The notes beneath the pieces were generated by a model. That model searched no databases. It was not told where the DNA came from and saw nothing but the letters and a program-made list of their open reading frames with translations. Made by a program: the position numbers and the translations under genes. Below are positions 28,751-48,588 of a DNA stretch of 56,545 nucleotides, piece by piece. Position 1 is the first letter of the stretch; every line of letters starts with the position of its first letter. The DNA is from Oscillospiraceae bacterium (GTDB lineage: Bacteria; Bacillota; Clostridia; Oscillospirales; Acutalibacteraceae): assembly GCA_015066445.1 (NCBI GenBank), contig SVOK01000011.1, forward strand, positions 1 through 56,545. The letters are read 5' to 3'.

Positions 28751-29521
28751 TTAAAATTCAATATTTACACAAACAGGATAATGGTCGGAAAGATAAATTC
28801 CGTCTATCTCATCGTCCCATAGCTCAGCGGTATAGCTGTATTTATCATTTGTGTGGTAGTAAATATAATCTATTTTATGGGCATTCGTGAAATTGCCGTA
28901 GCCGTGAAAAGTAAACTCAAACTCATCAGTTAAATCGGTCATCTTAAGGGGCGCTTTATTATTGAAATAATCGATAGTTTCTTCGTGCGGCTTAGCATTA
29001 AAGTCACCTAAAACAAAGAAAGGTGTTTTATATCTTTCGTCTGCTTCAACTATTCTTTCAAACAGCTCCTTTGTCTGAACTAAACGAATTTCAGGAGTTA
29101 AATAATCTAAATGCACATTATAGAATGTAAACAGCTTTTTACTCTCTATATGCTTTAACATTGCTCTCTGGCAAATGCGGGGGCAACCGCTCTCAGCGTC
29201 CTTGCTTTCGGGAACATAGGGTGTTTTTGAGTGCCAGAAGCAGTCAAGTCCGCAAAGCTCCATTGTAGCGTTACGGAAAGCAACGCAAAGACCCTCACCG
29301 CCAAAATCAGCATTTCTGCCGTTAAATATAAATGTATATTCTGGCAAACCATTCTTTAATGCCGAAATTATTTCGGGCTTACCCTCTTGAATACAAATAA
29401 CATCAGGTAATTCCTTTTTAATTTTGGCAACCGCCATTCCCTCACGGTGGATAAAACCGTTAATGCCGTCGCCTATCCACTGATTTCTGATATTATAGGT
29501 TACTACTTTTATTGTGCTCAT
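28751..29521 (-). CDS. Endonuclease/exonuclease/phosphatase (EEP) family enzyme
   Basis: This 256-residue cytosolic EEP-fold protein carries the expected metal and catalytic blocks: VVTYNIRNQW (Asn), ICIQEGKPE (Glu), YNVHLDYL (His/Asp), VLGDFNAKPH (Asp-x-Asn), HKIDYIYYH and YLSDHYPVCV (Asp-His). The fold covers AP endonucleases, sphingomyelinase-like and sugar/inositol phosphatases; no tail or signal peptide narrows it. Its ATG overlaps the stop of the GH94-like gene by one base, so it is translated with it. This suggests a role in handling the phosphorolysis product, but that is only inferred. Confidence 0.85.
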   Translation of the reverse strand: MSTIKVVTYNIRNQWIGDGINGFIHREGMAVAKIKKELPDVICIQEGKPEIISALKNGLPEYTFIFNGRNADFGGEGLCVAFRNATMELCGLDCFWHSKTPYVPESKDAESGCPRICQRAMLKHIESKKLFTFYNVHLDYLTPEIRLVQTKELFERIVEADERYKTPFFVLGDFNAKPHEETIDYFNNKAPLKMTDLTDEFEFTFHGYGNFTNAHKIDYIYYHTNDKYSYTAELWDDEIDGIYLSDHYPVCVNIEF

Positions 29522-32007
29522 TATAAAGACACCTCAATCAGATTTTTCTCTTTGCATAATTTGTCACTCGATATAAAATAATAGCCATTATATCTGTTTT
29601 GGGTTGGAGCAGATATTGAGATTTCCTCTCCATTAACGGTAAGGGAGCTCTCACCCTTGCGTTTATAGCTTATATCAAGTGTTTTCCCTTGGTATTTAAT
29701 GCTAAAAGACATTTCATTCCAGGCCTCAGGCATGCTCGGTTCAACTGTTACACCACCCGATGTATAATCCACTCCGCAGAGCCATTCATAAGCCGCACGC
29801 ACACACATTGCAACCGTTCCTGTAAGGAAAGTGAGCATTCCACGATGTCTGAAGGACGGAAGCTCCTGCCAGCAGTTGATAATAGCATAAGGGGCTGTCA
29901 TTACAGCAGAGGTCGGATGTTTATCCTGATAGCAGGGTAACATCCATTTAATAACTTCAAATAAATCGTCACCCTTACCTGCTCTTCCCAAAGCTCTTGC
30001 AAGGAAGCCCTGTGAGCCGTGGTTATAGTTATTACCGTTTTCACCCATAAATGCTGGCACATCTCCGCTTGCAGTTCTGCCAACCTTAGCTATAGGCTTA
30101 GCACCAAGCGGTGGATAGAAAAGTCTGTATCCGAATTCGCTTTTCAGCATATCCTTAACTGCGAATACCTTGTCAAGTTCTTCCTTTTTAGCGGTGCCGC
30201 TTATAACAGCATACCAGTTGGAGGGACCGTAAGGTCTTTCTTCGCCGTCAGGGTCACAGTCAGAGAACAGCCATTTACCATCATCATTAAAAACGCTGTT
30301 ATAATAGCCTTTTTTATTTACTGCGCTTTCACGCAAGCTCTCTTTAAATTGAGGAATAAATGCATTATAAGCGGCAATTTTCTCGGTATTCTTACCAAAA
30401 GCTTCGCAAAGCTCTGCCATATAACCGAGAGCATTTATAGTCTGGCAGGTAACCATAACTGATTCTCCCCTACCCTCAAGACCAGCTCCGTTTACAGAAT
30501 CAAGCCAGTCACCGCCTCTGATTTTGCAAAGCCCGTGCTCACCGATATTTTCAGGAGCTAAATAATAATCCATAGCGGCTATCATATGCTCCCAAACGGT
30601 GGACTCTGTATCGCTGTCAAGCCAAGGAAGCTTTTCTTCGATAACAGAAGTATCGCCCGAATAGGTTACATACTTATAGAAAAATTCAAGCACAGCCACA
30701 CCACCGTCAACATAAGGGCGTTCATCGTGTTTGCCTTTTCTGCCTGCGGCGGAATATTGGCGCAAGAACCAACCGTCTGTACGTTGACAGCTCAGAAGTG
30801 TCAAAAGAACCTCTCTACAGCTTTTAAGGTCGGTATAAATAAGAGCGCTGTAATCATTAGCGCTATCTCTCGTGCCTCTCATACCGCTCGGCCAACCACG
30901 GTCAAGAGAAGCTACCCAGTTCATCTGAATAGGCACCCAATAGTTCATATAATAATTGAACATCTCGTCAGGAGTTTTAACTGTGTTTACGCTGCAAATA
31001 TCATCATAGAAAGCCTTAACCTCAGCTACCTTTGCGCCGAATTGTTCTTCAGAAAACCATTGAAGTGATTTAAAGGCATCCTCTTTTGATGCCATAGAGC
31101 CGTCCTCACGGTTAGAGGGCATTGAAAGCACCTGAGTTAAAGTCTTGGTCTCGCCCGCATCCAAATTCCACTCATACTCCATTGCATATACAGGAGGACA
31201 AGCATAAATCTGCGCATCATCCATATATTCACCATAGCCGTTAGTTCTGTCAGCCGGTATTCTGAGCTCGCCGCTTACTGCAAATTCAGGGCAATAAACC
31301 GAGCCGTTACCCACAAACTTTTCAAGGCTAAGCTCCGTATTTTTAAGTCCCTCGCCATCTGTAAACATTACCATTGTGCGTCGCTTTGATTTATCTCCCG
31401 AAGGATTAAGCAGCTCTGTCCAGAAAACGCCTTTATCTGCTTCATTGCCGAAACCGCTTCTTAAATACCACTCGTTTTTATCCCAAGGAGCAAGCATTGC
31501 CTCGTTGCAATAGGGTACTAAAAAAGGTTTAAGCTGCAAATGAGCTGTATTTTTCTCGGTATTAGTAACCGAAAGCTTCATTGCTATTTCTTTACCGTGG
31601 AGAGGAATTGCAAGCTCGGTTTTAAGCTTTAAGCCGTTATATGTAAACTCATATACTGCCTTTTCAGGTAAAAACGATATTGAAAGGTTTTCTGGCTCTA
31701 TACCGCTGTCAGCTCCGTTTATCTGAGGGCGGAAATAGTTATTGAACGGGGCTTCTTCGTTCTTTTTTATCCACACAAGCCAATTTGAAAAGCGCTGACC
31801 GCTCTCTCTTTTGAAGAGCATTATATCAGCAGGAGGGTTATTCTGCGCATAAACAGGACCGTATTGGTCAACCTTCATAAGAATATCTCGGTTTTGGTAA
31901 ATATATTCCCAAGCGGCAGGCAGATTAAGAGATTTAATATTAAAGCCTGCGCAGTTTGGGATAAACTCACCCAAAAGTCTTTTATTATCATTGTAAACCT
32001 GATACAT
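29521..32007 (-). CDS. GH94-like (glycosyltransferase 36 type) sugar phosphorylase
   Basis: This 828-residue cytosolic protein shows GH94 organisation: an N-terminal beta sandwich (1-280), a linker helix, an (alpha/alpha)6 barrel from about 350 and a C-terminal two-layer jelly roll ending in a GGVTVEPSMPEAWNEMSF segment. The barrel holds RGTRDSANDY, a TDGWFLRQY block, GGDWLDSVNG with the general-acid Asp503, GRGESVMVTCQTINALGYM and ENGNNYNHGSQGFLARAL. GH94 enzymes phosphorolyse beta-gluco-oligosaccharides to alpha-Glc-1-P. Conserved positions are there, but the N-terminus is not that of cellobiose, chitobiose or sophorose enzymes as I know them, so the substrate is unknown. The ATG at 32007 has AAAGGA six bases upstream; the TTG/ATG extension above it lies within the preceding hairpin. 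Confidence 0.8.
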   Translation of the reverse strand: MYQVYNDNKRLLGEFIPNCAGFNIKSLNLPAAWEYIYQNRDILMKVDQYGPVYAQNNPPADIMLFKRESGQRFSNWLVWIKKNEEAPFNNYFRPQINGADSGIEPENLSISFLPEKAVYEFTYNGLKLKTELAIPLHGKEIAMKLSVTNTEKNTAHLQLKPFLVPYCNEAMLAPWDKNEWYLRSGFGNEADKGVFWTELLNPSGDKSKRRTMVMFTDGEGLKNTELSLEKFVGNGSVYCPEFAVSGELRIPADRTNGYGEYMDDAQIYACPPVYAMEYEWNLDAGETKTLTQVLSMPSNREDGSMASKEDAFKSLQWFSEEQFGAKVAEVKAFYDDICSVNTVKTPDEMFNYYMNYWVPIQMNWVASLDRGWPSGMRGTRDSANDYSALIYTDLKSCREVLLTLLSCQRTDGWFLRQYSAAGRKGKHDERPYVDGGVAVLEFFYKYVTYSGDTSVIEEKLPWLDSDTESTVWEHMIAAMDYYLAPENIGEHGLCKIRGGDWLDSVNGAGLEGRGESVMVTCQTINALGYMAELCEAFGKNTEKIAAYNAFIPQFKESLRESAVNKKGYYNSVFNDDGKWLFSDCDPDGEERPYGPSNWYAVISGTAKKEELDKVFAVKDMLKSEFGYRLFYPPLGAKPIAKVGRTASGDVPAFMGENGNNYNHGSQGFLARALGRAGKGDDLFEVIKWMLPCYQDKHPTSAVMTAPYAIINCWQELPSFRHRGMLTFLTGTVAMCVRAAYEWLCGVDYTSGGVTVEPSMPEAWNEMSFSIKYQGKTLDISYKRKGESSLTVNGEEISISAPTQNRYNGYYFISSDKLCKEKNLIEVSL

Positions 32008-32020
32008 ATTATTTCCTTTC

Positions 32021-32053
32021 AAAAACAGACGCATATTTTATGCGTCTGTTTTT
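32021..32053 (-). terminator. Terminator hairpin directly before the GH94-like gene
   Basis: A perfect 15-bp stem (32021-32035 with 32039-32053), with a TTT loop on the plus strand and TTTTTG after it on the minus strand. The hairpin begins 6 bases after the stop of the duplicated gene at 32059 and ends 2-4 bases before the ribosome binding site of the GH94-like gene. Confidence 0.85.
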
Positions 32054-32058: not shown

Positions 32059-33042
32059 TTATTCGTAATCTTTAAGATGTGACCACAAATCAAGGTCGCA
32101 AAGCTTCATTTCACGAAGCTCTCTGCCAATTTCTATCATTCTTTCCTCTAACTTATTCCAACGCTCAGGGTTCTTTAAATCGAAACGCCAGTCAAGAGAT
32201 TCATTGCTTTTCCAAGAACGCCAGGTATAGCAGAAAAGTCCGCCTGGATTCTTGCGGTCCATCAAAAGCTTATAAAGTACATTGAGATTTTCTATGCAGA
32301 AATCCTCTGTAGCATCAGGAGAGTTATAACGAGTCCAGGTGCAAGGAACGTGCCAGAGATAGAAATTATCTCTACCCATCATTTTAATCATTATATCGGT
32401 AAGCTCGTTAAACTTATCGTAATCAGCGTGACTGTACCAGTCAAAGCCGACATCAGTTAAGAAACGGCAGGAACGAGGGGTGATAACATGCTCAAGCATA
32501 CCGAACTCGGGGTCGGTTGATCTTGGGTGCGTACCCTCCTTAATCTCATAAAGCGAGAAAATTGACATCTGACGCTTGCCGAATTTTGCCATATACTCGG
32601 AAAACTCCTCAAAAACATCAACATCAACGTGAAGCATAGGCTCATCATACTGGAAGCCGATAACCGCATCCCAAAGACCTGCATCCTTAGTTTCCTGCAC
32701 GAGTTTTTCAATTTCATCCTTCCAACCAGCTTTTAGCTGATAAGACTTCTTGCCCTTAATTTCAACCATAACCATCGGAAAATAATATACCCATGTGCCG
32801 CAACCCATTGCTTTAATTCTTCTGAGGTTATCACGGTCACTTCTATCAAGACGGTAGATATAGAAATTCATATAATCAAGATTTTCTTGATAGTCGCACA
32901 TTTCTCTGTCATAACCGTCGTGAGCAAAATAATTGCTATCACGATAGCCTCTACTGTCTCTGCCACCCTGTCCAAAATGGTAGATACCAAAGCCCAGCTT
33001 ATCTGTAGCATAAGGCATACCGTTTGCTAATGTTTTTTCCAT
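32059..33042 (-). CDS. Unrecognised TIM-barrel-like protein, second of a tandem pair
   Basis: I do not recognise this family. The 327-residue product has no signal peptide and looks soluble and cytosolic. It has a run of strand/helix units suggestive of a beta/alpha barrel: LGFGIYHFGQGGRD, TWVYYFPMVMVEIKGKKS, AVIGFQYDEPMLHVDVDVF, RQMSIFSLYEIKEGTHP, FDWYSHADYD, FYLWHVPCTWTRY and GGLFCYTWRSW. The strongest catalytic candidate is QYDEP at 131-135 (Asp133/Glu134). It is about 82% identical, ungapped, to the gene just upstream (my hand count). The transporter context suggests a glycan-processing enzyme. The ribosome binding site and leader are duplicated along with the frame. Confidence 0.7.
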   Translation of the reverse strand: MEKTLANGMPYATDKLGFGIYHFGQGGRDSRGYRDSNYFAHDGYDREMCDYQENLDYMNFYIYRLDRSDRDNLRRIKAMGCGTWVYYFPMVMVEIKGKKSYQLKAGWKDEIEKLVQETKDAGLWDAVIGFQYDEPMLHVDVDVFEEFSEYMAKFGKRQMSIFSLYEIKEGTHPRSTDPEFGMLEHVITPRSCRFLTDVGFDWYSHADYDKFNELTDIMIKMMGRDNFYLWHVPCTWTRYNSPDATEDFCIENLNVLYKLLMDRKNPGGLFCYTWRSWKSNESLDWRFDLKNPERWNKLEERMIEIGRELREMKLCDLDLWSHLKDYE

Positions 33043-33069: not shown

Positions 33070-34053
33070 TTATTCATAATCTTTCAAATGTGAATACAAA
33101 TCAAGCTCATTTAATTCGATTTCACGGACCTCACGTCCGATTTCAATCATTCTTTCCTCTAACTTATTCCAACGATTTGGATTTTTGGAGTCGAACAACC
33201 AATCAAGGCTTTCTTTACTTCTCCAGGAGTGCCAGGTATAGCAGAATAGTCCGCCCGGATTTTTACGAGCCATTAAGAGCTTATAAAGTACGTTAAGGTT
33301 TTTAAGGCAAAATTCCTCATTAGCATTCGGGTCGTTATAACGGGTCCAGGTGCAAGGAACGTGCCAGATGTAGAAGTTATCTCTGCCCATCATAGCAATA
33401 AGCTCATCAAGATAAGCATCAAAAACATCATAATCAGCGTGGCTGTACCAATCGAAACCAACGTCTGTTAAAAAACGGCAGGAACGGGGGGTGATAACGT
33501 GGTCAAGCATACCGAATTCGGGGTCACCTGCTTTCGGGTGTGTGCCCTCTCTTATCTCATACATTGAGAAAAGTGCCATCTGACGCTTGCCGAATTTTGC
33601 CATATAGCCTGAAAATTCCTCAAAAACATCAACGTCAACGTGGAGCATCGGCTCATCATACTGAAAGCCCGCAATAACATCCCAAAGACCTGCTTTTTTT
33701 GTATCCTCAACTAATTTTTCAATTTCGTCCTTCCAGCCTGCCTTTAGTTGCCAAGACTTTTTACCCTTAATTTCCACCATAACCATCGGGAAATAATAAA
33801 CCCAGGTAACACAGCCTATTTCTTTAATTCTTCTGAGATGGTCGTGGTCACTTCTATCCATACGATAGATATAAAAATTCATATAATCAAGATTTTCCTG
33901 ATAATCGCACATCTCACGGTCATAACCGCTGTGAGCAAAATAGTTGTTATCACGAAAACCTCTGGCATCTCTGCCAGCCTGACCGAAATGATATATGCCA
34001 AAGCCTACTTTATTAGAAGCATACGGCATACCATTTGCTAATGTTTTTTCCAT
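33070..34053 (-). CDS. Unrecognised TIM-barrel-like protein, first of a tandem pair
   Basis: This paralog of the next gene has the same length, start (MEKTLANGMPYA), QYDEP motif at 131-135 and C-terminus (SHLKDYE). Changes cluster at 210-230 (VFDAYLDELIAMMGR against KFNELTDIMIKMMGR) and in positions likely on the surface; the putative acid pair, aromatic and His residues are kept. The genes sit 27 bases apart on one transcript, after two permeases. A separate hairpin (34108-34140) intervenes between the permease gene and this one. Function is inferred only from the cluster. Confidence 0.7.
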   Translation of the reverse strand: MEKTLANGMPYASNKVGFGIYHFGQAGRDARGFRDNNYFAHSGYDREMCDYQENLDYMNFYIYRMDRSDHDHLRRIKEIGCVTWVYYFPMVMVEIKGKKSWQLKAGWKDEIEKLVEDTKKAGLWDVIAGFQYDEPMLHVDVDVFEEFSGYMAKFGKRQMALFSMYEIREGTHPKAGDPEFGMLDHVITPRSCRFLTDVGFDWYSHADYDVFDAYLDELIAMMGRDNFYIWHVPCTWTRYNDPNANEEFCLKNLNVLYKLLMARKNPGGLFCYTWHSWRSKESLDWLFDSKNPNRWNKLEERMIEIGREVREIELNELDLYSHLKDYE

Positions 34054-34152: not shown

Positions 34153-35097
34153 TTATTCGCCTGTAAGACCAGAACGCTCAACACCAGCAATAAACTTACG
34201 CTGAAGTGCAACATATACTATGAAGAGAGGTGACAAGCAGACTGTGGTAGCAGCCATTACAACGCCTCTGTGGTACATAACCTGTACTTCATTAGAAATC
34301 TGATTCATAGTATCGCCGCCGGTCATATCATTCTGCATCTGAGCCATCATACTCTGGAGCATTTCAAGCATCTGGGGCAAAAGATACATATCGGCAGATT
34401 TAATATAAATCGAAGGCTCGTAAGCATCGTTAAAGTGCCAAACTATCGAAAGAAGTATACAAACAATAAGAGTAGCGCCTGTGGACGGAAAAACAACCTT
34501 AATAAAGGTTTTGAAACGACCACAACCATCAATCATAGCGGCCTCTTCCAAGGATTTGGGTATTCTTAAGAAGAACTGTCTGAAGAGGAATATGAATATA
34601 CCGCCTCTGAGCCCGAAGCCGAAGAAGGTTGGCAATATCATTGGCATGAATGTGGTATCAAGACCAACATTTGACCAAGTGATATATGACGGAATAATAA
34701 TAGTCTGCGCAGGAACAAGAATAGATAAGATTACTATTCCGAAAAATACGTTCTTTAAAGGGAACTTAAAACGGGCAAAGCCGTAAGCTACTAAAGAACA
34801 GGAAATTACGTGACCCACTGTGCTGATAACGGTAACAAGCAAAGAGTTCCAGCCTGTTTCAAACACTTCAAGTGCCTGCCAAGCCAACGCATAGTTTGAA
34901 AAGGTTGGATCTCTTGGGAACCACTTAACAGTATTGTTAGTTATATCGCTATAGCTCTTGAAAGAGTCTACAATCATACTCAAAAAGGGATACAGGAATA
35001 CAAAAGCCAAACCTGTAAGCAACAAATAAACCACAAGCTTGAAAATTATCGAAGCGGGTTCAATATTTTTTAATGAAGTTGACAGTTTTTTTTCCAA
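34153..35097 (-). CDS. CUT1 sugar ABC transporter permease (MalG-like), pair 2
   Basis: This 314-residue inner membrane subunit has six predicted segments (for example VYLLLTGLAFVFLYPFLSMI and LLVTVISTVGHVISCSLVAYG). The cytoplasmic EAA loop reads EEAAMIDGCGRFKTFIKVVFP and docks the ATPase. The frame opens upstream, but the GGGAGGG site is spaced for a TTG at 35097, before EKKLSTSLKN; a start further up would lie in the previous gene. It is 13 bases after its partner permease. No ATPase is encoded here, so a shared MsmX-type ATPase from elsewhere must power it. Confidence 0.9.
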   Translation of the reverse strand: MEKKLSTSLKNIEPASIIFKLVVYLLLTGLAFVFLYPFLSMIVDSFKSYSDITNNTVKWFPRDPTFSNYALAWQALEVFETGWNSLLVTVISTVGHVISCSLVAYGFARFKFPLKNVFFGIVILSILVPAQTIIIPSYITWSNVGLDTTFMPMILPTFFGFGLRGGIFIFLFRQFFLRIPKSLEEAAMIDGCGRFKTFIKVVFPSTGATLIVCILLSIVWHFNDAYEPSIYIKSADMYLLPQMLEMLQSMMAQMQNDMTGGDTMNQISNEVQVMYHRGVVMAATTVCLSPLFIVYVALQRKFIAGVERSGLTGE

Positions 35098-35110
35098 GTG
35101 TATCCCTCCC

Positions 35111-35992
35111 TTAATCCTTAACCTTGTTAACAAACGGTCGCATAATTGCGAAAATTATCGCAACCAAGAGTATTACAAACAGGAAGAATACCCAGCTCAT
35201 TGCAGCGGAATTTTCCCATTCCTTAAGTGCGAAACCTGTATTCTGAATATGTCTGAACAGCAGGTTATCCGCATTAATGAAGCAGTCAACAGTTGAATAA
35301 ATAAGGTTCATAAGTATTGTGGGAGTGAGCATCGGCAAAGTGATAAGCCAGAACATTTCCCATTCTGTAGCAGAGTCAACACGTGCCGCCTCATAAAGAG
35401 TTGGAGACACGCTCTGCAAACCTGACAGATAAATGATTATCTGAACACCGCACTTCCAAAGTATTGAAGAAATAAGGTTAAGGAAGTCGGTAGCAAAAGC
35501 TGTAAACTCGGCGCCGAAGAAAATCTTTACCTCCATAGGAAGCAATATATTTTGAGCAGCCTCCATAGCTTCGCCCTGAACGCCCTGACCCAAAAGCTGA
35601 GTCATAATAAAACCTGAACCCAAGATAACGGGTAGGAAGAATATTGTTCTGTAAGCTGTTCTGCCTGGGAATTTGCGGTTAAGGAGAATTGCTATGAACA
35701 ATGCAAATACGTTTGTAAGAGGTATCTGCGCCAGCATTTCAGTTGCTGTTGTAGCAAAGTGCTTTACATACCAGGCATCTTCACGGAACATAAACTTATA
35801 ATGCTGGAGTCCTGCCCATTCAATCTCATATTCAGACATATTAAGTACGTTTACAAAGCTTAACTGAATTGAACGGAAAATGGGGAACGCAAAAAACAGA
35901 CAAAAGCCAATTATCCAAGGAGATATGAAGGCTAAGCCGGCAAGCGCATCTCTGCGTTCAGTTATTGTAGGCTTCTTGAACTTCAATTTCAT
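35111..35992 (-). CDS. CUT1 sugar ABC transporter permease (MalF-like), pair 2
   Basis: This 293-residue permease partners the one at 34153. It has an N-terminal anchor (AFISPWIIGFCLFFAFP), six segments and EAA loop YEAARVDSATEWEMFWLITLP. Its ATG overlaps the DUF5696 gene end by 4 bases, tying it to that gene. This pair (35-34 kb) is distinct from the pair at 42-40 kb, giving two CUT1 translocators in one operon. Confidence 0.92.
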   Translation of the reverse strand: MKLKFKKPTITERRDALAGLAFISPWIIGFCLFFAFPIFRSIQLSFVNVLNMSEYEIEWAGLQHYKFMFREDAWYVKHFATTATEMLAQIPLTNVFALFIAILLNRKFPGRTAYRTIFFLPVILGSGFIMTQLLGQGVQGEAMEAAQNILLPMEVKIFFGAEFTAFATDFLNLISSILWKCGVQIIIYLSGLQSVSPTLYEAARVDSATEWEMFWLITLPMLTPTILMNLIYSTVDCFINADNLLFRHIQNTGFALKEWENSAAMSWVFFLFVILLVAIIFAIMRPFVNKVKD

Positions 35993-38214
35993 TGTGCGCT
36001 TCCCCCTTCGATAACAACATAGTTTTCTGACGGAACTTCTACTCCGTTCACGTTAGCTGTCTCATTTCCATAATTGATGTAGATACTGTTGCCGCCCTCA
36101 TAGGTTACGATAACAACATCATCAGAAACAACCTTATGGTCTATCATAGTTTCTTTAGCTGTAAAGCCTAATTTTGTATTAAATTCTTCGATACACTCAT
36201 TAACAGTGCCCATATGCTCCTCATAATCGGTAGCAAAAGCAGTGTCTGCATAAGTGTTCTTGATAAGTTCAGAGGTATTGTAGGTCAAAACGAAGTTGGG
36301 CTGACTTCCGTATTCGATCCACTTTAATTTCTGCTGATCAAAGTCTGCTGACATATTACCTGCAATATTGCCGGTATATGGTATGTAGCCGTGAACTATC
36401 ATCTGATAGAAAGGAATTGAATAAACCATTTTGGTATTTTCGCTTCCCTTTTCGGGCATATCATAAATAGCGTTAACTGTTGACAGCATATAAGCATTAC
36501 CGCCCTGAACAGCAGTCTTCATTTTATTTTCAGCAGCAACCTTAGCTGTTTTAACAAAAGCAAGTGCTGTTTGCGAACGGATAAGTCTACCGCCCTTAGA
36601 ATAGTCATCATAGAGATAATAGCCTGCTTTTTCAAAAGCGATACCATTTGCGTTTACATCTTTGAAGTAAGGAATTCTCTTGTTATTGAATTTCTTTAGC
36701 TCTACTAACGCATTACGCAAATAGCTTTCATAAGCACCGTCTGTTATAGGCAGATTCATCTCATTATAAACTGCCTGACTGTTTGCGTTAAAGCCTACGC
36801 CATCCTTAATAGCAGCAACATAATCTGCTACCATATAGGACTCGATTTTATTATCCTCAAAGTATTTATTAAGTGCAGCCAAATCCTTTTTGCTACCTAA
36901 AATCTTAGCTAGCTTATCACCTGATGGGTTAAGACCGTAGCCACCCTCTTGCCAGCCAAGCATATAAATACGAAGGTTATCTCTCTTATCTTTATCGACA
37001 GCTTCTATGATTTTTTTGGTCTCATCAAAGGTGGTTAATGCTTTAAGGCTGGTATCCATACCCGAGTTACCCTTAGTAGCCATTACTATCTGAAGGTTTG
37101 CCTTAACATCATCATTGTTGCCTGAACTCTTATTAAGAAGACCCTTGCGAAGCATAAACTCCCTTATAACAGAAGCCATATCACCGTAAGTGATATTACG
37201 GGTTGAATTTTGAATGAAGAAATACTGAATACCGTAATCTCCTGCTGACAAATCCTTTTCAACCTGTGTTATCTCAACATCGGTAGGAGATATGAACGAA
37301 TAGGATTTACGATACATACAGGAAGCCACCATACGGTTGTAACCTGTAGCAGAAAATGCAGGCTGCAAGGTTGCATAAGCATTTTCGTCACCCTCGGTTA
37401 CATAAGAGACAACGCCTGTTTTACCGTCAGTAATACCGTATGCCGGAAGCATTACGTTTTGCTGACCCTGATTTATACGTTCATCTATCTCATCAAGATC
37501 AAATGAGTTCTGGAAATAGAAGAAGGTTGAAAGAGGAGTTGTGTCACCCGAAACACCGAACTTATAGAGAGAGCCACTTCCGTCGGGATAAACAACAAAA
37601 CCGTCTTCATTGTTTTTTACAGCGCCCATCATCGGGAACAGGGTGATACTTGTTATACCGTAAATATCCTTTTCCTTGATAGATTTAACCGGTATGCGGG
37701 CTTTAAGACCGCCCTCATTAAGCCAAACCTCTATAGTAAAGGTTATTCCGTAATCAGCAAAGGTGAGCTCTAAAGCTATACCGTTTTCCAAAGCCTTTTC
37801 CTTGATATCAACGGTAGTAGAGGTGGTATCAAAAACATCCTCTAAGCCCTTAAAGTCGGTATAACCAACCTGACAGAGCCTATACATTGATTTATCAAGC
37901 TCAAGGTCACCCTCAGAGGTATAGAATGCAGCGCTTGTACCGCTTGTAAAAACCACATTAGAAACAGTATCAATAACATTAAAAGTATTGCTATCACGCT
38001 GGTAAGTGAGCTTTTTACCGTCAACCTCACCTAAAGTAATGATATTTTCGGAAGAAAGAACTGTATCTGTATACTTTGGTGTATCAGTAACCTTAGTTTC
38101 CAATAGTGAATAGTCAACTGATTTTTTAGGTATTATAATCCATACAGCAAGGGCAGCTATGGCTACAACGAGCACTAATGCGGTTATAATAACAATTTTT
38201 GTTTTTTGTTTCAT
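35989..38214 (-). CDS. DUF5696-domain protein
   Basis: This 741-residue protein has a short cytosolic N-terminus, one signal-anchor helix (IVIITALVLVVAIAALAVWIII) and a large extracellular part. It carries the DUF5696 signature with GFVVYPDGSGSLYKFG, LPAYGITDGKTGVVSYVTEGDENA and, near the end, VVIVTYEGGNSIYINYG. A central barrel-like region includes MLGWQEGGYGLNPSGDKL. DUF5696 genes occur in Firmicutes beside YIP1 proteins and CUT1 permeases; the molecular role is not established. The gene is 17 bases after the YIP1 gene and overlaps the next permease by 4 bases. Confidence 0.82.
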   Translation of the reverse strand: MKQKTKIVIITALVLVVAIAALAVWIIIPKKSVDYSLLETKVTDTPKYTDTVLSSENIITLGEVDGKKLTYQRDSNTFNVIDTVSNVVFTSGTSAAFYTSEGDLELDKSMYRLCQVGYTDFKGLEDVFDTTSTTVDIKEKALENGIALELTFADYGITFTIEVWLNEGGLKARIPVKSIKEKDIYGITSITLFPMMGAVKNNEDGFVVYPDGSGSLYKFGVSGDTTPLSTFFYFQNSFDLDEIDERINQGQQNVMLPAYGITDGKTGVVSYVTEGDENAYATLQPAFSATGYNRMVASCMYRKSYSFISPTDVEITQVEKDLSAGDYGIQYFFIQNSTRNITYGDMASVIREFMLRKGLLNKSSGNNDDVKANLQIVMATKGNSGMDTSLKALTTFDETKKIIEAVDKDKRDNLRIYMLGWQEGGYGLNPSGDKLAKILGSKKDLAALNKYFEDNKIESYMVADYVAAIKDGVGFNANSQAVYNEMNLPITDGAYESYLRNALVELKKFNNKRIPYFKDVNANGIAFEKAGYYLYDDYSKGGRLIRSQTALAFVKTAKVAAENKMKTAVQGGNAYMLSTVNAIYDMPEKGSENTKMVYSIPFYQMIVHGYIPYTGNIAGNMSADFDQQKLKWIEYGSQPNFVLTYNTSELIKNTYADTAFATDYEEHMGTVNECIEEFNTKLGFTAKETMIDHKVVSDDVVIVTYEGGNSIYINYGNETANVNGVEVPSENYVVIEGGSAQ

Positions 38215-40307: not shown

Positions 40308-41189
40308 TTACTTAATACCTGAGTGCGCCATAGTAGCAATTACTCGACGCTGCATGAGTGTGTAAATGATTATTGTTGGCAACAAAGTTATAAGTGTTGC
40401 AGCTGCCATAGCACCTGCTCTTGTAAGAGCAGCACCACTACCGATAGAAGAAACTGCCAAAGGCAAGGTTCTCATTGAAGTATCAGTAATGTATACCATA
40501 GGAGCAAAGGAGTCGTTCCAGCTTGCTGTGAACGAGAACACAACCAAGGTACTGCAAGCAGGCTTCATGAATGGGAATACTATTTTACTGAATATCTGCC
40601 ATTCATTAGCACCGTCAAGTCGGGCAGCTTCAAGCAAAGCGTTTGGCAACTGATCACAGAACTGCTTTACAAAGAAGAAACCGAACGAGCCTGCAACCTT
40701 AGGTATTATAAGTGCCCAATATGTATCCATAAGACCGAGGTTATTAACAACCAGATAGTTAGGAATGGTGTTAAGTGTAGTCGGGAACATAAGGGTTGCA
40801 ACTATAACGGAGAATATCAGATTTTTGCAAGGCAAATCAAGCTTTACAAGACTGTATGCACCGATAGAAGAAACGAAAATTGTTAGTAAAACGGTAACTA
40901 CCGAAACAAATACACTGTTTACAACATAGCGCAAGAACGGAACCGAGCTACTTCCTGTTGCAAACAACAAATCTCGGAAGTTGTTTAGCGTGGGATTCTT
41001 AACAAAGAACTGGGGTGGGAAGCGTAACAGCTCATCCAAAGGCTTGAAGGCTGTACAAATTACATACACAAGAGGTAATGCTGTAAAGCAAACGAAAGCT
41101 AATACGAACAAGTAAACCAAAACTCTTGATGTAGATATTTTAATATGCAGTTTTCCAAAACGGATATGAAAACCTTTTCTAACTCTCAT
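40308..41189 (-). CDS. CUT1 sugar ABC transporter permease (MalG-like), pair 1
   Basis: This 293-residue permease has six membrane helices. Its EAA loop is LEAARLDGANEWQIFSKIVFP. The long N-terminus (MRVRKGFHIRFGKLHIKISTS) precedes the first helix VYLFVLAFVCFTALPLVYVI. It is 18 bases after its partner and belongs with the solute-binding protein upstream. Confidence 0.93.
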   Translation of the reverse strand: MRVRKGFHIRFGKLHIKISTSRVLVYLFVLAFVCFTALPLVYVICTAFKPLDELLRFPPQFFVKNPTLNNFRDLLFATGSSSVPFLRYVVNSVFVSVVTVLLTIFVSSIGAYSLVKLDLPCKNLIFSVIVATLMFPTTLNTIPNYLVVNNLGLMDTYWALIIPKVAGSFGFFFVKQFCDQLPNALLEAARLDGANEWQIFSKIVFPFMKPACSTLVVFSFTASWNDSFAPMVYITDTSMRTLPLAVSSIGSGAALTRAGAMAAATLITLLPTIIIYTLMQRRVIATMAHSGIK

Positions 41190-41207: not shown

Positions 41208-42119
41208 TTATTCGTCTTTGCTGGACAGTAAGAATGATACCAAACGTCCGAACAAGAATGTGATAAGGAACAAAATAACTGTTACAGCCGAAGCGTAACC
41301 CATTTCGTACCTCTGGAACGCATAGTCGTAAATATGCGCAACCATCGTATGACCTGCATAGTTAGGTGTCGGGAAGCCTGCGAAGGATGTGATAATATCG
41401 AATACGCCGAATGAACCCGAAATTGTATTAATAGCACCGAAAAGAAGCTGAGGCTTCATCTGGGGCAGAGTGATGTAATAAAGCTCTGCAAATCTGCCCT
41501 TGATACCATCGATAGCGCCTGCTTCATAAAGCTCTTGGTTAACGTTCTGCAAACCTGCCATAAATACAAGGAAGCCCGTACCCATACCCATCCAGACCTG
41601 AATGAAAATACATACCGGAAGAATAAGGTCAACGTCCTGATTCCAAAGTATCGGTGAATCTATAAGACCCAAACGCATAAGAGCGTTATTTATAAGACCG
41701 TAGCTATCTGACGAGAAGAAATAAAGCCAGATAACACTCATTGCCGCACCACTTGTTAGCGAAGGAGCATAGAAAGCAAGAGCGAAAGCAGTTCTGCCCT
41801 TTAAATCGTTAAGTACCCAAGCCATAATAAACGACATAATATAACTTATAGGACCTGCGATACAAGCGAATACTAAGGTGTTTTTAAGTGACAAAAGAAA
41901 GATTTCGTCGTTAAGGAATAACTGCTTGTAGTTATTGAAGCCAACAAAATCCTTACGGTTTAAAAGGTCAAAGTTTGTTACACTGTAAAGTGCGGACTGC
42001 ACAACAGGAGCCAAAGTAAACAAACAGAACAGAACAAAGAACGGGAGGAAGAAAAGTATAGCAAGAGTTCTGCTACTTAATGAACGATCTTTCTTTATTG
42101 CTAAAGATTTGGTTTTCAT
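41208..42119 (-). CDS. CUT1 sugar ABC transporter permease (MalF-like), pair 1
   Basis: This 303-residue permease has an N-terminal helix (AILFFLPFFVLFCLFTLAPV) and an EAA loop YEAGAIDGIKGRFAELYYITLP. It starts inside the solute-binding gene stop (TAATG), with the ribosome binding site GGAGGAG in the last codons of that gene. This is the most direct partner of the binding protein. Confidence 0.93.
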   Translation of the reverse strand: MKTKSLAIKKDRSLSSRTLAILFFLPFFVLFCLFTLAPVVQSALYSVTNFDLLNRKDFVGFNNYKQLFLNDEIFLLSLKNTLVFACIAGPISYIMSFIMAWVLNDLKGRTAFALAFYAPSLTSGAAMSVIWLYFFSSDSYGLINNALMRLGLIDSPILWNQDVDLILPVCIFIQVWMGMGTGFLVFMAGLQNVNQELYEAGAIDGIKGRFAELYYITLPQMKPQLLFGAINTISGSFGVFDIITSFAGFPTPNYAGHTMVAHIYDYAFQRYEMGYASAVTVILFLITFLFGRLVSFLLSSKDE

Positions 42120-45022
42120 TATTTATCTCCTCCTTTTTTATCTAATCCTAATTCTTCACGTTTACGTGAAAGCTCAATATTAATAGCCTCGATAGCCTCT
42201 TCCAAGGAAGCGCGTGGCTTATAGTTACCTGTCATACATCTTGAAATAGCATTTGTCATATGGCGTGTGGTAAAGTAACCGCCGGGAACATAAGGAGCTT
42301 CAACAACGCCCTCCCAGCTCTTTTCAATAACAGCTAACTCATCTGTACTCCAAGGTAATGAACGGTAAGCTTCTACGTTAGCAGTACCCCATCTGGCTGA
42401 AAGGCCGAGTATTGATTCGAGACGCTGACCATATTCGGACTGAGTTTTAGCTGAAGTCCACCATTTAAGGAATTCCCAAGAAAGCTCGGGCTCTTTGGTG
42501 GTCTCCATAATAACAGATACTGTACCTAAAGCTTCACCGGTAGAACGGTTAAGTGTACCGTCCTCATTAACAGTTGCCGGAACAGGAGCAATTGCCCACT
42601 TACCTACAAGCTCGGAAGCACCGTACGCAATAGTAAGATAATCTGCCATGCCACCTATACCGATAGGTGTTTCACCAGTACGGAAACGGTTGATAAAGCT
42701 TATAGCATATGGGAAACCATAATCCTTATAGTTGCCTATAAACTGGTCAAATGCTCTGAAAGCAGCATCGCTGTCAAGAGCGGATTTACGTTTGTCATCA
42801 GTGTAAAGCTGACCACCGTTCTGATAAAGGAAAATGTTGAAGCTCTGAGGTATATACATCTGGAGATTATGCTGATACAGCTTGGGCAACATCTCATTGT
42901 ATACCTCGTCCCAGGTATCAGGTATTTCAATATGTAATTTTTCGAATACGTCGGTTCTGTATATAAGTGACTTGAATTCCATTGTTTCAGGTAAGCCGTA
43001 TACACTGCCTTCGTAGGAAATCGGGTTATAAAGCTGTTCCAAGGTATAGGTTTTATGCTGTTCAAAATCCTTGAACTCGGTAAGATCCTTAATAACACCA
43101 CGAATAGCATACTCAGCTGTATTACCGCCCGCCATATTAAGAACAACGTCAGGCTCCTTACCTGCATTTACAGAAAGCAACAATGTGTTAACAGTACCTG
43201 CGAATGCGCCTTCAGGCAAGAGGTTTACTTTAAGGTTAACGTTATGCTCAAGTGCAAATTCGCTATCTGCGAGATCCTTTATGATTTCAGCCCATTCTTT
43301 ACTCTTAGAAAGCCAAACCTCAAGGTCTTTAGCTTTTTTGCCTGTATTAGCATTTAATGAGCCTACTGCGTTATAGTCCTTAGTGTAAGAAAGAACAAGG
43401 TTTTTAATGGTATTAACAATAAGATCCCAGAAGGTCTGCTTGGGGTTGGGAAGCTCTTTTTCAGGGCTTGAAAAAACAATGTAATCAACAAACAAAGACT
43501 GAGTTTTAAGAGTTGTCAGCCATTCACCCATATTAGTGATAGTGCTGGTAAAATCAGCAAGGCCTGCCGGAATAGCATCAGGGTCATTCTTATAACCTTC
43601 GATTGTGGTTATAGCCTGACGGATACTGTTTTCAACAGTGGCAGTTTTATTTGTAGTTGCCTGAATTCCCTTGATACAGTCATTAAGAACATCAATTATA
43701 TCCTGCAAATCACCAATAAGAGCGGGGATAGATTTATCCAACTCATAATCGTAGTTAAGGTCAGGAGACTGGCCTGTAACCATAACTATATTCTGATAGC
43801 AGTTTGAAAGCATTGAGTTTGCCTGAGTTACCTTGTGAATGATATCAGTGGAATCGCCGTTAACAGCGGTCATAGTAAGGGTGTGCTCACCTTCTTCTAA
43901 ATAGAAAAGGTAAGGCTCCTTACCATCGGTAAGAGTATTAGTCTGCCATTTAGCATCATATTCAAAAACATATTCCGCCATTTCAGCGAAAGGAATTTTA
44001 TCGTCAATTTCGATTCTTCTTGAAGAAGGCATACCGCTGTTAGCATTCTGAACACTTCTGAGCGCTAACTTATAAAGACCGGTTTCCTTTACGGTAAACT
44101 TCCAGGTAATGCTCTTGCCGCCTGCATTCCATGTGTTACCGCCGATGCCGTTGAACTTCTTAGAAGTGATAGCCAAAGGCTCCATAGTGGAATCAGAGTC
44201 AGAAGCGATAAGGATTGAAGAAGCACTCTTATCGTAAATATTCGCAAACTTTTCAGCCTGGAACTTTATCTGCTTTGTAGCGTTCTTATAGCCTTTTTCT
44301 TTATACTCGGCTTTAACCTCTTTGTATGAAGGTAATTCCTCGGAAGCTTTTATGGAAATTTTAGAAATTTGAACGGGTTGGTTAACATAGTTTATACTAA
44401 GAGTATGCTCGCCTGCAGTAATAGCAAACTTCAAGGGTTCGCCATACATACCTGCGTTATCATAAATCGGTGTGGTTTTCCAGCGCTTAACCTCGGTCTG
44501 AGAGGGCATAACCTCATCGCCTAAGTTATTGGTCTTGGGTTCATTTGAATCCATAAAGCTACGCTTGAAAAATACGTTCTTAGCTTCTTCAAAAGGATAT
44601 TCACCGTCTATCTGGATACCTCTCGAAACGTCCTGAGAGTTACCGCCGATACAATAATAATCTACATATATTGTATAAAGACCGTCAGACGGAACTGTGA
44701 ACTTATATGTAACATCTCTATTGTTATGGTCGGTATAAATAACCTGTCCCTTAGTTTCATCCTCCTTTATAAGTGGGTTACCCCCGATATAAGAGAAGAT
44801 GTCAATATCACTTTCAAAAGAAGCAACCGTATCCCAGTCATTGTCTTTTTGATACTCGCTGTAATAATAAGTATCATAAATTACATCAGATACGGCAGAA
44901 TCATCAGTATATTCCAGTCTTTCGGCAAGTGATTGGGCGCCTACCAAGGTTGCAGTTTCAAACAGCATAACAGCTGCAAGAGAAATTGAACCTATCGTTT
45001 TTAAAATAGATTTTCTGCTCAT
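42119..45022 (-). CDS. Extracellular solute-binding protein fused to jelly-roll-like modules
   Basis: This 967-residue exported protein joins two kinds of part. After a signal peptide (MSRKSILKTIGSISLAAVML... to VGAQS) come two beta modules at about 60-240 and 245-400, each ending with an EHTLSINYVN or EHTLTMTAVN strand typical of carbohydrate-binding jelly rolls. A helical segment follows (about 410-510: two amphipathic stretches around DIIDVLNDCIKGIQATTNK). The last 420 residues are a sugar-binding SBP domain (VNLLPEGAFAGTVNTLLLSV, YGLPETMEFKSLIYRTDVFE, GETPIGIGGMADYL, SWEFLKWWTSAKTQ). There is no lipobox, so attachment is not by lipid; the signal may be uncleaved. The ATG at 45022 has AAAGGA eight bases upstream; thirty extra codons lack a site. 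Typical SBPs have about 430 residues. Confidence 0.88.
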   Translation of the reverse strand: MSRKSILKTIGSISLAAVMLFETATLVGAQSLAERLEYTDDSAVSDVIYDTYYYSEYQKDNDWDTVASFESDIDIFSYIGGNPLIKEDETKGQVIYTDHNNRDVTYKFTVPSDGLYTIYVDYYCIGGNSQDVSRGIQIDGEYPFEEAKNVFFKRSFMDSNEPKTNNLGDEVMPSQTEVKRWKTTPIYDNAGMYGEPLKFAITAGEHTLSINYVNQPVQISKISIKASEELPSYKEVKAEYKEKGYKNATKQIKFQAEKFANIYDKSASSILIASDSDSTMEPLAITSKKFNGIGGNTWNAGGKSITWKFTVKETGLYKLALRSVQNANSGMPSSRRIEIDDKIPFAEMAEYVFEYDAKWQTNTLTDGKEPYLFYLEEGEHTLTMTAVNGDSTDIIHKVTQANSMLSNCYQNIVMVTGQSPDLNYDYELDKSIPALIGDLQDIIDVLNDCIKGIQATTNKTATVENSIRQAITTIEGYKNDPDAIPAGLADFTSTITNMGEWLTTLKTQSLFVDYIVFSSPEKELPNPKQTFWDLIVNTIKNLVLSYTKDYNAVGSLNANTGKKAKDLEVWLSKSKEWAEIIKDLADSEFALEHNVNLKVNLLPEGAFAGTVNTLLLSVNAGKEPDVVLNMAGGNTAEYAIRGVIKDLTEFKDFEQHKTYTLEQLYNPISYEGSVYGLPETMEFKSLIYRTDVFEKLHIEIPDTWDEVYNEMLPKLYQHNLQMYIPQSFNIFLYQNGGQLYTDDKRKSALDSDAAFRAFDQFIGNYKDYGFPYAISFINRFRTGETPIGIGGMADYLTIAYGASELVGKWAIAPVPATVNEDGTLNRSTGEALGTVSVIMETTKEPELSWEFLKWWTSAKTQSEYGQRLESILGLSARWGTANVEAYRSLPWSTDELAVIEKSWEGVVEAPYVPGGYFTTRHMTNAISRCMTGNYKPRASLEEAIEAINIELSRKREELGLDKKGGDK

Positions 45023-45180
45023 AAACTTAATCCTTTCTAAAAAGCAATAAAGTCGCCACATAGCACAATAAAGGCTTGCGGCATTAACCCGAACCGTTAT
45101 AAAATTCCACATAAAATTGCCAAGTTGGGAACACTTTCAAAAAGGGTTGGCCTAAATTAGCAATATTTATAGATTTTACA
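45023..45180 (-). other. Long 5' leader of the binding-protein operon
   Basis: About 158 bases separate the promoter from the SBP start. They hold small possible stems (GGCCAA...TTGGC, and GCCGCA...TGTGGC) but no recognised riboswitch, T-box or coding frame with a ribosome binding site. Confidence 0.4.
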
Positions 45181-45439: not shown

Positions 45440-45459
45440 AAGTTTAAATATTATGTAAT

Positions 45460-48400
45460 TTATTCAAAAACCTGACCTTCCCATTTAAGGGCACGTGAGC
45501 GTACAAGGTCTGCAAAGCTTGAATAGAAGCTTATATCATCAATATAAACTGTCTTGCCTGTAAGTTCGCCATTCTTATTGCAGAATGTAACCTTAACATC
45601 GAGAACCTGATTATAATCAAGCTCGGCGTTAGAAATTATAAATCCATCCTTTTCCACAATAAACATATTCTCTTTAGGAATAACTACCCAGCCACGGAAA
45701 CCATCAGGAACAACAAGCTCGCCTGTTTTCTTGGATATTACACCGTACTTATCGATAAGATAATACCATTTATCGCCGTACTCCCAATATTCTATACCGT
45801 CGGTCGAGTTATCAGTAAGAGCAAGGTCAAGTGTTGTATCACCTGCGCCGTTAGGCATCTCTACCCAGAAAGCAGTACCTGCTCCGATAACAAGTTCTTC
45901 CGACTTACTTGTTGAAGCGAAATCAATATAGCTTTCACCTTCAGGCATTGTAAGCTTTAAGCTACGTTCATCAAATGAATGGTCACTCTTTTCGATTACA
46001 AGCTTTTCGCTGAAACCGCTAAGGCCTGCATTCTTTGCATTGCCAGAGCCATCATTCGTAACCATCATATTGGTGTTTTCAAATGTGCCTGCATCGTAGG
46101 TTGCAAGTAATCCATCAAGACCGATTTCTTCAAACAGTTTATCGGTATCGTAAATAAGTGAGAATTCATCTATAACAAATGTATGGTCATACTTTTCAGT
46201 ATCAGGAATTTCGTTTCTTGTATAGTAGAAACCGAACTGTGTAAGGCTGTTAGCCTTAATAAATTTATACCAAGTGGTATCTACAGAACCGTATTTCATA
46301 GAAACTGTGTTGCCTGCATTTAACACACAGTAAACAGTGCCTTTGAAATTACTGATATTGATACCATCCTTCGCACGGAGCACAGTTTCGCCATCATCAC
46401 TGATAGCAATTATCTCCGCCTTAACATAGTTCGAGTTTCCGCTTGCACGCAAACCAAAATACATTTTATAGGAATCGTTACCTAAATCAGGAATATCAAC
46501 ATGGAAGCTATAGCCTGATATATTATGTATCTGTTCTACACCATTTGTATCAACCTTAAAGGTTATTTCCTGAACTATACGCTTGTTGCCAAGAGTCTTT
46601 ATAGCCATACCCTTACCATCGGGTGAATCGTTATCAACAATAGATTTCTCAAAATAAGTATCGCTAAGCCAGCTCCAAGTATTATTACCCACGCCTGTAC
46701 CATTGTTAACAACTACAACGTTAGGACCGTCATAAGGAGGCTCTATTGTATATTCATAAGTTGCCATACCGCTGACAACATTAGAGCTGTTAACAGCAAT
46801 TGCCTTTATAGTAGTAGCTTTTTTGAGCTCAATATAGGAAGCATCTTCCTGACCGTTACCCATGCTGAAGGTCTCATATTTGATTCCGTTCTTCAAAACA
46901 CCGTCTTCAACAATGGGAGTTGTACCGTCGGTAGTATAGTAAATGGAGCAGGTGTCACCCGCATAAAGGAATACCTGAGTATCCATAGGAACGGCATCAC
47001 TGCCGGGATCAGCTGTTGGAGGCATAGGACGCTTCGGCTGTTTGTCAAGGTCAGCAATAAATGTCTCGAAATCAGCAATAGCTATCATATGGTCCATAGT
47101 AAATGTCTTATTATAATAAGCAGCGTGGCTTTGATAGAAGGTTACACACCAGAAACCTGTTGAGGCAAGATATTCGCGCCAAGTGCTTCTCGAGGTATCG
47201 CCCCAGTTATCACGAACGCATTCGCCGTCAAGCTTTAAAATATAGAAGCCTTCAAAATTATCAAGCTTGGGAGCTTCTTTGAATTCTTCATAAATACCTG
47301 TGGTTGTGTTATAAAGACCTATCGTTCCTCTGAAAGCATTAACCTCACGGTTAATACAAGCACCGAGGCTGTTATTAAAGCCCTCGGGAGCACTCACCCA
47401 GAAAGCAATAGCTTCCTGTGCGGCAAGTAGATCAACGTCCATATTGTTAACCATCTGTACCCCCATCATACTTGCGCCGCCGTTACCGCCGATTCCCTTA
47501 TAGAACATGGCGTTACCGTAAGGTGAAAGGGTATCTACCAAGGTTTTTTCTACATTTACGCCCTCATGAGCAGATCCGTTTGAAGCGGTTGAAAGGTCAT
47601 CAAAGGGATTAAGCACTGCAACATTAGGTAAGGTTTCATCATAAAGCTCATAATCAACAGAAATTGTAAGACTTTCATATCCGTCCTTATAAGCTACAGC
47701 CTTTAATGTGCAGTTTTCTGTAATTTTTGGCTTAGCATCTGCGCTGTATTTGGTAGAAGTATTATCAGGCTGAGTGCCGTCAGTAGTATAGTAAATCTCA
47801 GAGCCTTCCTCACCGTTAAGTGTGATTTCGGTGTTCTTCTGCACAATACCGCTTGGAATACTTGCCTTTGGCGGATCAATTGAAAGCTTGCACTCTGCAA
47901 GAGCTTCCTCGGCATCATAATAAAGGGTTAATTCATCAAACACCATAGTCTGACCTTTGATGCTATAATCATAGTCAAGATAGAAACCGAATGAAGTCAT
48001 ACCATATTTATTAATAAACTGCGACCAGGTATAAGGACCGCCGCCATTATCACCCCAGGTAGGAGTAAAGGTGTTTTGGGTTTCATCAGGAATAAGAATA
48101 AGTATAGTACCCTTGAAATCACTAAGCTTGTTGAAATCCTCAATAACATTACCGTCAGCACTTATAGCATATCTTTGACCCTTCAGTCCATACTGCTGAG
48201 CATTAATATAAAAGCTGAAAAACGCATTAGTATTTCCCGCTTTATTAGCGTCAGGCAATTCTACATAAACACTTATTGCCTTAACGTTTTTCACATCAGG
48301 AGCAGAAGTGGTATCTGCCTTTAAACCAAAAACATTGGCTTTCGTCATATCGTCAACAGCTGTAAGGCTTAAGGCTTTACCGTCAGATGAGCTATTATCT

Positions 48401-48588
48401 ACCGTACCGCTTTTATAATAAGCACTGTTAATCCAACCAAAGGTATTTGTGCCATTTCCTGTACCGTTATTAACAACAACCGGTTCAGGTACTGTGTCAG
48501 CAAATACAAAAGTACCGATACCTAACGATGTGATTACTACTGCAATAACAGTAAGTATTGCGATAAAACGCAGCTTAGAGTTTTTCAT
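45460..48588 (-). CDS. Large secreted multi-domain protein with chitobiase-like C-terminal repeats
   Basis: This 1042-residue product has a signal peptide (MKNSKLRFIAILTVIAVVIT... to FVFAD) and no anchor. A jelly-roll-like module starts VVVNNGTGNGTNTFGW (about 37-225). A chitobiase/hexosaminidase C-terminal-type repeat is at about 235-310 (EIYYTTDGTQPDNTS). A second jelly-roll follows (about 320-495) with DMDHMIAIADFE-like ending as read (MDHMIAIADFETF). Another chitobiase-type repeat is at about 515-615 (SIYYTTDGTTP). Then a copy of the first module occurs (VVVVNNGTGVGNNTWSW, about 625-800) and a fourth beta module ends near YIDDISFYSSFADL. There is no visible catalytic domain, so a glycan-binding or scaffold role seems likely. 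Its promoter matches that of the binding-protein operon. Confidence 0.8.
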   Translation of the reverse strand: MKNSKLRFIAILTVIAVVITSLGIGTFVFADTVPEPVVVNNGTGNGTNTFGWINSAYYKSGTVDNSSSDGKALSLTAVDDMTKANVFGLKADTTSAPDVKNVKAISVYVELPDANKAGNTNAFFSFYINAQQYGLKGQRYAISADGNVIEDFNKLSDFKGTILILIPDETQNTFTPTWGDNGGGPYTWSQFINKYGMTSFGFYLDYDYSIKGQTMVFDELTLYYDAEEALAECKLSIDPPKASIPSGIVQKNTEITLNGEEGSEIYYTTDGTQPDNTSTKYSADAKPKITENCTLKAVAYKDGYESLTISVDYELYDETLPNVAVLNPFDDLSTASNGSAHEGVNVEKTLVDTLSPYGNAMFYKGIGGNGGASMMGVQMVNNMDVDLLAAQEAIAFWVSAPEGFNNSLGACINREVNAFRGTIGLYNTTTGIYEEFKEAPKLDNFEGFYILKLDGECVRDNWGDTSRSTWREYLASTGFWCVTFYQSHAAYYNKTFTMDHMIAIADFETFIADLDKQPKRPMPPTADPGSDAVPMDTQVFLYAGDTCSIYYTTDGTTPIVEDGVLKNGIKYETFSMGNGQEDASYIELKKATTIKAIAVNSSNVVSGMATYEYTIEPPYDGPNVVVVNNGTGVGNNTWSWLSDTYFEKSIVDNDSPDGKGMAIKTLGNKRIVQEITFKVDTNGVEQIHNISGYSFHVDIPDLGNDSYKMYFGLRASGNSNYVKAEIIAISDDGETVLRAKDGINISNFKGTVYCVLNAGNTVSMKYGSVDTTWYKFIKANSLTQFGFYYTRNEIPDTEKYDHTFVIDEFSLIYDTDKLFEEIGLDGLLATYDAGTFENTNMMVTNDGSGNAKNAGLSGFSEKLVIEKSDHSFDERSLKLTMPEGESYIDFASTSKSEELVIGAGTAFWVEMPNGAGDTTLDLALTDNSTDGIEYWEYGDKWYYLIDKYGVISKKTGELVVPDGFRGWVVIPKENMFIVEKDGFIISNAELDYNQVLDVKVTFCNKNGELTGKTVYIDDISFYSSFADLVRSRALKWEGQVFE

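Follow-up and report, generated by a model that had tools for sequence, protein, structure and literature searches.

A recurrent gene core with two CUT1 permease pairs and a variable enzyme end in an Oscillospiraceae genome

The locus described here raises the question of whether a one-directional run of transport and sugar-processing genes in an Oscillospiraceae bacterium constitutes one glycan-uptake system or an accidental mixture. The genes lie in a 56,545-nucleotide stretch of DNA (GenBank assembly GCA_015066445.1, contig SVOK01000011.1, positions 1 to 56,545; hereafter the window), which is contig C20 of the source genome, G000 (1.75 Mb, 87% complete). Thirteen genes, all on the minus strand, fill positions 28751-48588; domains were assigned by a Pfam scan, and the genes and domains named in an original prediction are present there, all on one strand. 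We found that the importer genes belong to a core that is a widespread module, and that its enzyme end varies. We propose that this core is a conserved dual importer module of CUT1-type ATP-binding cassette (ABC) transporters, here for an oligosaccharide, with NHL, YIP1 and DUF5696 proteins as partners of permease pair 1, a reading to which we assign a probability of about 0.58. The novelty lies in the conserved core and in a family of barrel proteins, termed QY, and not in this one gene combination. The features are listed below (SBP, solute-binding protein; TM, transmembrane; GH, glycoside hydrolase; EEP, endonuclease/exonuclease/phosphatase).

28751..29521, minus: EEP-fold enzyme, 256 residues, no signal sequence (Pfam Exo_endo_phos, E 6.4e-14)
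29521..32034, minus: GH94-like phosphorylase, 837 residues (Pfam GH94, E 6.5e-41; best PDB match 4zle, E 1.9e-33)
32059..33042, minus: QY1, TIM-barrel protein with a QYDEP motif, no signal sequence (predicted fold and sequence)
33070..34053, minus: QY2, tandem paralogue of QY1 (82% identity)
34153..35133, minus: perG1, pair 1 permease (Pfam; solved relatives SugB, MalG, AlgM2)
35111..35992, minus: perF1, pair 1 permease (Pfam, EAA-type loop)
35989..38214, minus: DUF5696, N-terminal membrane helix and GH129-like ectodomain (Pfam, profile, predicted fold)
38232..38852, minus: YIP1 membrane protein, about 5 TM segments (Pfam)
38856..40295, minus: NHL beta-propeller protein, TPR-like stretch, TM segment at both ends (Pfam)
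40308..41189, minus: perG2, pair 2 permease (Pfam, EAA-type loop)
41208..42119, minus: perF2, pair 2 permease (24.7 bits against a Pfam cut-off of 26.4; EAA-type loop)
42119..45112, minus: SBP fusion, long N-terminal part and SBP_bac_1 (Pfam; Met31, at 45022, is the likelier start)
45460..48588, minus: secreted protein with CHB_HEX_C/Fn3-associated repeats (Pfam; no catalytic domain recognised)
48835..48854, plus: candidate operator, a weak lead, common to the AraC/QY promoter region on contig C13 (sequence pattern)

Transcription runs from the secreted repeat protein through the SBP fusion, perF2, perG2, NHL, YIP1, DUF5696, perF1, perG1, QY2 and QY1 to the GH94-like and EEP genes. Four of the 12 junctions are overlaps and six leave 3-27 bp between the genes; the two widest measure 99 bp, between QY2 and perG1, and 347 bp, ahead of the SBP fusion. 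Overlaps had been predicted for most junctions; they are a minority, and the genes are mostly close-packed.

Recurrence of the core

We compared the block with 40 additional DUF5696 neighbourhoods, spread by choice over families (39 genomes, 22 families), of which 20 came from the 48 places listed in a draw of genomes across the phylum and 20 from among the matches listed in relatives. Greedy picking of open reading frames (ORFs) overlooked genes in several loci, and core genes were counted by a six-frame search with profiles built from the window, its paralogues and the related genomes G023 and G060, DUF5696 being present by selection. NHL, YIP1, perF1 and perG1 were found in all 40 neighbourhoods, the remaining part of the core (the SBP fusion, perF2 and perG2; half A) in 36, and the complete, ordered core in 34. 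The four loci without half A differ in how much flanking sequence they offer: L055 is an 8.7 kb contig that begins at NHL, L058 and L061 have a different gene before NHL and a contig end within ~2.5 kb, and L056 is the only one that lacks half A despite room for it (5.8 kb). Because the two halves are swapped in L062 and L070, and half A is gone from L056, half B (NHL, YIP1, DUF5696 and pair 1) looks like the constant unit.

In 21 of the 40 neighbourhoods the NHL and YIP1 profiles match a single frame. The only two plasmid records matched bear this organisation out. A Butyrivibrio fibrisolvens plasmid carries eight core genes in the same order, under NCBI's names, with two SBP genes downstream, and on a Paenibacillus cellulosilyticus plasmid (L108) the order is unchanged except that NHL and YIP1 give way to a single 'YIP1 family protein', whose 719 residues match the fused NHL-YIP1 form in length. 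DUF5696 itself is found in 72 genomes among 99 relatives (E up to 1e-20) and in 26 of the 299 genomes of the phylum draw (E up to 1e-30), the window's genome being counted in both, and many genomes hold several copies. The core order recurs both among relatives and in genomes of the phylum draw, which for the core rules out a random mixture of genes, an outcome that would have undone the original prediction. In the open-access literature we found no paper on DUF5696 and no relevant one on combinations of YIP1, NHL and ABC components.

Closer to the window, orthologous loci occur in three genomes of the same genus (G023, G032 and G060), with permeases 63-86% identical to the window's; in this comparison pair 2 shows higher conservation than either pair 1 or DUF5696. 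G000 holds three further cassettes, on contigs C37, C39 and C26. Among its four cassettes the closest pair is C37-C26 for each of seven core genes, clearly so for perF2, perG2 and DUF5696 and with a margin of one percentage point in the remaining four, an agreement consistent with, though not proof of, joint descent of the core.

These data also bear on the alternative that two ordinary, independent CUT1 importers are merely co-transcribed, with NHL, YIP1 and DUF5696 concerned with surface or wall upkeep and not transport. Such an arrangement would fit permease pairs that each look complete, the presence of two kinds of SBP, halves that are swappable or separable, and gene histories that agree by a single point in four of seven genes. 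It sits poorly with the company that NHL, YIP1, DUF5696 and pair 1 keep in all 40 neighbourhoods sampled and with the identical order annotated on both named plasmids, and we consider it unlikely.

Permeases, ATPase and binding proteins

An EAA-type loop is present in all 16 permeases of the four G000 cassettes, which on those cassettes rules out pair 1 as a dead, non-coupled pair. Under a stricter EAA pattern applied to all cassettes, 41 of 46 perG1, 39 of 42 perF2 and 32 of 38 perG2 sequences match. Each importer thus has the two BPD_transp_1 permeases with EAA loops that characterise CUT1 systems, perF2 scoring 1.7 bits under the Pfam cut-off. Among solved structures perG1 matches AlgM2 (E 1.9e-10), and SugB and MalG score better.

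As predicted, no ATPase gene is found among the block's 13, and when the greedy ORFs from the 40 neighbourhoods were scanned for motifs, one ABC ATPase came up (in L081), outside the cassette. A UgpC model gave 28 matches in G000, one of them over the cut-off (C11:14190-15320); a MalK/UgpC/MsmX-type ATPase is therefore available in the genome and would plausibly serve these permeases. In the Paenibacillus cassette ugpC directly precedes the SBP fusion. The predicted import by CUT1 permease pairs with an unlinked ATPase is thus supported.

In the SBP fusion about 600 residues precede the SBP domain, with weak Golvesin_C-like matches under the cut-off. The SBP fusion on C39 (G000:C39:78225-81025) is read as two ORFs, the second without a signal sequence as judged by eye; a naturally split SBP is weakened by that lack, and the gene may be frameshifted, broken or misassembled.

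A second kind of SBP accompanies the core. In 14 of 39 loci the gene that comes right after perG1 matches an SBP profile (L070, where the SBP fusion itself follows, was left out of this count), and five of six such genes tested match Pfam SBP_bac_1. In G023 and G032 a matching 570-residue SBP lies inside the locus, before the SBP fusion. Its relative in G000 sits on C13, with no Pfam match and an AlgQ2 match at E 2.5e-32, in a likely partner locus (L031, G000:C13:43975-56794) that encodes an AraC-like regulator (called by sequence, not by domain scan), a QY lipoprotein, the AlgQ-type SBP, a QY protein of 1554 residues and a paralogue (58% identity) of the window's secreted repeat protein. Pair 1 thus probably has its own AlgQ-type binding protein, here the one on C13.

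The three secreted repeat proteins of the window, C13 and C37 have a common C-terminal end close to RSRAxxWEGQVFE; those of G023 and G032 end in a hydrophobic, TM-like segment and not in such an end.

Two perfect 18-position sites, one at the block and one at C13, define the candidate operator pattern, and the next best site has three mismatches. The pattern gave 8 matches, compared with 3 for a reversed control; an equal best match was reached in 7 of 500 shuffles, the site pair having been selected from 13 comparisons. An operator common to the block and C13 may be taken as a lead only.

GH129-like and QY barrels and the enzyme end

The predicted structure of DUF5696 has the GH129 fold over its full length, at 10-15% identity to GH129 structures. 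A single DUF5696 sequence matched no solved structure; the family profile then found GH129. The position of the acid in the LDGW motif, as in NagBb, is acidic in 1 of 44 DUF5696 sequences. Loss of the GH129 catalytic acid, suggested by this gap, was dropped because the active Zobellia enzyme, ZgGH129, likewise lacks the acid in the alignment, so that this acid does not mark the whole family. We accordingly judged an active DUF5696 likelier, and the dual-importer reading slightly less likely, than before. DUF5696 might then be an outer-face GH129-like exo-glycosidase that trims the glycan before import, a role compatible with dual import. The low identity to GH129 structures speaks against this, as does the finding that within residues 545-625 no column is acidic in at least 70% of the 44 sequences. 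We consider this role less likely than not. The catalytic Asp of ZgGH129 (D486, mutated in the Michaelis complex according to the entry title) falls outside the profile alignment. Elsewhere in G000 a GH129-type protein with a DUF5696-like C-terminal part (C1:7739-9430, L034) is encoded close to genes for a QY protein and a GH36 enzyme.

The QY proteins are predicted (beta/alpha)8 barrels, as are those of clan GH-A, and the fold, together with the lack of a signal sequence in QY1, agrees with the cytosolic barrels originally predicted. In clan GH-A the acid/base Glu follows strand 4 and the nucleophile strand 7. E134 of QY is invariant in 16 of 16 sequences and immediately follows strand 127-133, the strands being counted by DSSP and not by superposition. 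Against solved structures the QY sequence gave a single match (E 0.41), and no relatives were found in viral contigs. The nearest named relatives come from Clostridia metagenome-assembled genomes, and more distant ones from those of Oscillospiraceae, one of them from roe deer colon. Inspection by eye indicates signal sequences on QY-domain proteins encoded on C13 and C37 of G000 and in the orthologous locus of G023 and G032. The predicted absence of an extracellular hydrolase therefore stands for the block and fails beyond it, where secreted QY proteins are probable.

The window also encodes a small cohesin protein (6357-7454), and across G000 there are 4 matches to cohesin and 13 to dockerin, with 11 of the dockerin matches exceeding the cut-off; a small cellulosome-like system may carry some of the secreted QY proteins.

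Aligned to solved structures, the GH94-like protein keeps the GDWxD, ENG..NH and TGT motifs, in line with its original assignment; they include what we take to be the catalytic Asp, in DWxD, and the phosphate-site residues. At E 1e-60 it occurs in two of 295 genomes of the order, its own included. Relatives are 72% identical in G060 and 35% identical in G508. In the G508 neighbourhood no core gene was matched, and a relative of the GH37-like protein of G060 lies 7 kb away; this neighbourhood is not informative on substrate. The window encodes one more phosphorylase, a Lacto-N-biose/galacto-N-biose phosphorylase (7536-9704), at a long distance from the block.

Enzymes differ from cassette to cassette. 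The window has QY2, QY1, GH94-like and EEP genes, G060 has GH36-type, QY, QY, GH94-like and GH37-like genes, and G023 and G032 have GH36-type, QY, GH35 and GH127 genes, GH36 being assigned by similarity to a domain-scanned protein on C1. By the other G000 cassettes lie genes for GH3 and a calcineurin-like phosphatase (C37), GH16 and GH2 (C39), and GH43 (C26).

The closest solved relative of the EEP protein is the uncharacterised 3l1w (E 2.9e-22); 3g6s and 3mpr also match, as does the mannosyl-6-phosphatase 4c1r (E 5.4e-15), which relates EEP in sequence to a solved sugar phosphatase. That relationship, the calcineurin-like phosphatase after the C37 cassette and the flavin oxidoreductases in Paenibacillus could be taken to mean that the compound handled by the locus is a phosphorylated glycan or no glycan at all, with EEP as the key enzyme and the GH94-like and QY proteins acting on its product. 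No EEP relative was found in the fetched stretches of G023, G032 and G060, nor genome-wide at E 1e-20, and their enzymes are instead GH36-type together with GH35 and GH127, or GH37-like; we regard this as the least probable of the alternatives considered.

Upstream of the block are ribosomal protein and rpoA genes, and on its other side histidine synthesis genes. HisZ and HisG are usually separate subunits; positions 21412-23010 encode one 532-residue protein with both HisZ-like and HisG domains.

Proposed mechanism and relation to known systems

From the gene content, order and recurrence, the predicted folds, the ATPase-docking loops and the GH94 motifs we infer complex formation, topology, a binding or trimming role for DUF5696, enzyme activities and substrate as follows. 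The secreted repeat protein and the SBP fusion would collect glycan at the cell surface, and pair 2 would accept what the fusion delivers. Pair 1 would have as its constant partners the NHL propeller, YIP1 and DUF5696, GH129-like and anchored in the membrane, and would also use the AlgQ-type second binding protein, here probably that of C13. A shared UgpC/MsmX-type ATPase would drive both pairs. In the cytosol QY1 and QY2 would hydrolyse, and the GH94-like enzyme phosphorolyse, the imported chain, and EEP would take phosphate off a sugar phosphate or a phosphorylated substituent. The mechanism originally predicted thus survives in outline; it was incomplete in that the core is widespread with varying enzymes, secreted QY proteins are encoded elsewhere, and pair 1, the second permease pair, has a probable AlgQ-type binding protein.

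Several observations weigh against dual import of a glycan. The stricter EAA pattern matches just 14 of 44 perF1 sequences, and the profile for the second SBP was built partly from matches later counted. The pairing of the C13 SBP with pair 1 rests on G023 and G032, where the SBP is in the locus without adjoining pair 1. No regulator gene lies beside the block. QY has no invariant acid after strand 228-232 (strand 7), where W230 and P233 are invariant. The genes that come after the Paenibacillus cassette encode four LLM flavin oxidoreductases and two SBPs, not glycosidases, so the cargo of such cassettes need not always be glycan.

A bolder version makes NHL, YIP1, DUF5696 and pair 1 a new ABC importer complex, linked to a second, more conserved importer, in which the GH129-like barrel has been adapted as a glycan receptor or gate that passes substrate on to the membrane, in role the Firmicutes equivalent of SusCD, and makes QY a new family of glycoside hydrolases whose catalytic acids are unusually placed; we regard it as speculative and rather doubtful. 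If the constant neighbours do work together, they would represent a common, apparently undescribed route for complex sugar uptake, with testable roles for three protein families and one candidate new enzyme family.

Compared with CUT1 importers that share an MsmX/UgpC ATPase, the block has the same EAA-loop permease pairs and SBP, no linked ATPase in the block, and a UgpC-type ATPase encoded at another place in the genome or, in Paenibacillus, next to the cassette; it differs in joining two permease pairs with NHL, YIP1 and DUF5696 in one unit and in fusing the SBP to a long N-terminal part. Like AlgS-AlgM1M2-AlgQ1/Q2 it has matches to AlgQ2 (the C13 SBP) and AlgM2 (perG1), whereas perG1 is closer to SugB/MalG, there are extra subunits, and the AlgQ2-type SBP is at C13, outside the block. 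Gram-positive polysaccharide utilisation loci likewise bring together an AraC-like regulator, SBPs, permeases and glycosidases, as in G023 and G032; in the window's genome the regulator and secreted QY proteins are on another contig. DUF5696 shares the full-length fold and profile match with GH129 (NagBb, ZgGH129) and differs in its low identity and membrane anchor. The block's GH94-like enzyme shares catalytic and phosphate-site motifs with GH94 phosphorylases and the GH94 domain of cyclic beta-1,2-glucan synthase, from which it differs in its low similarity, its phosphorolysis being predicted from sequence.
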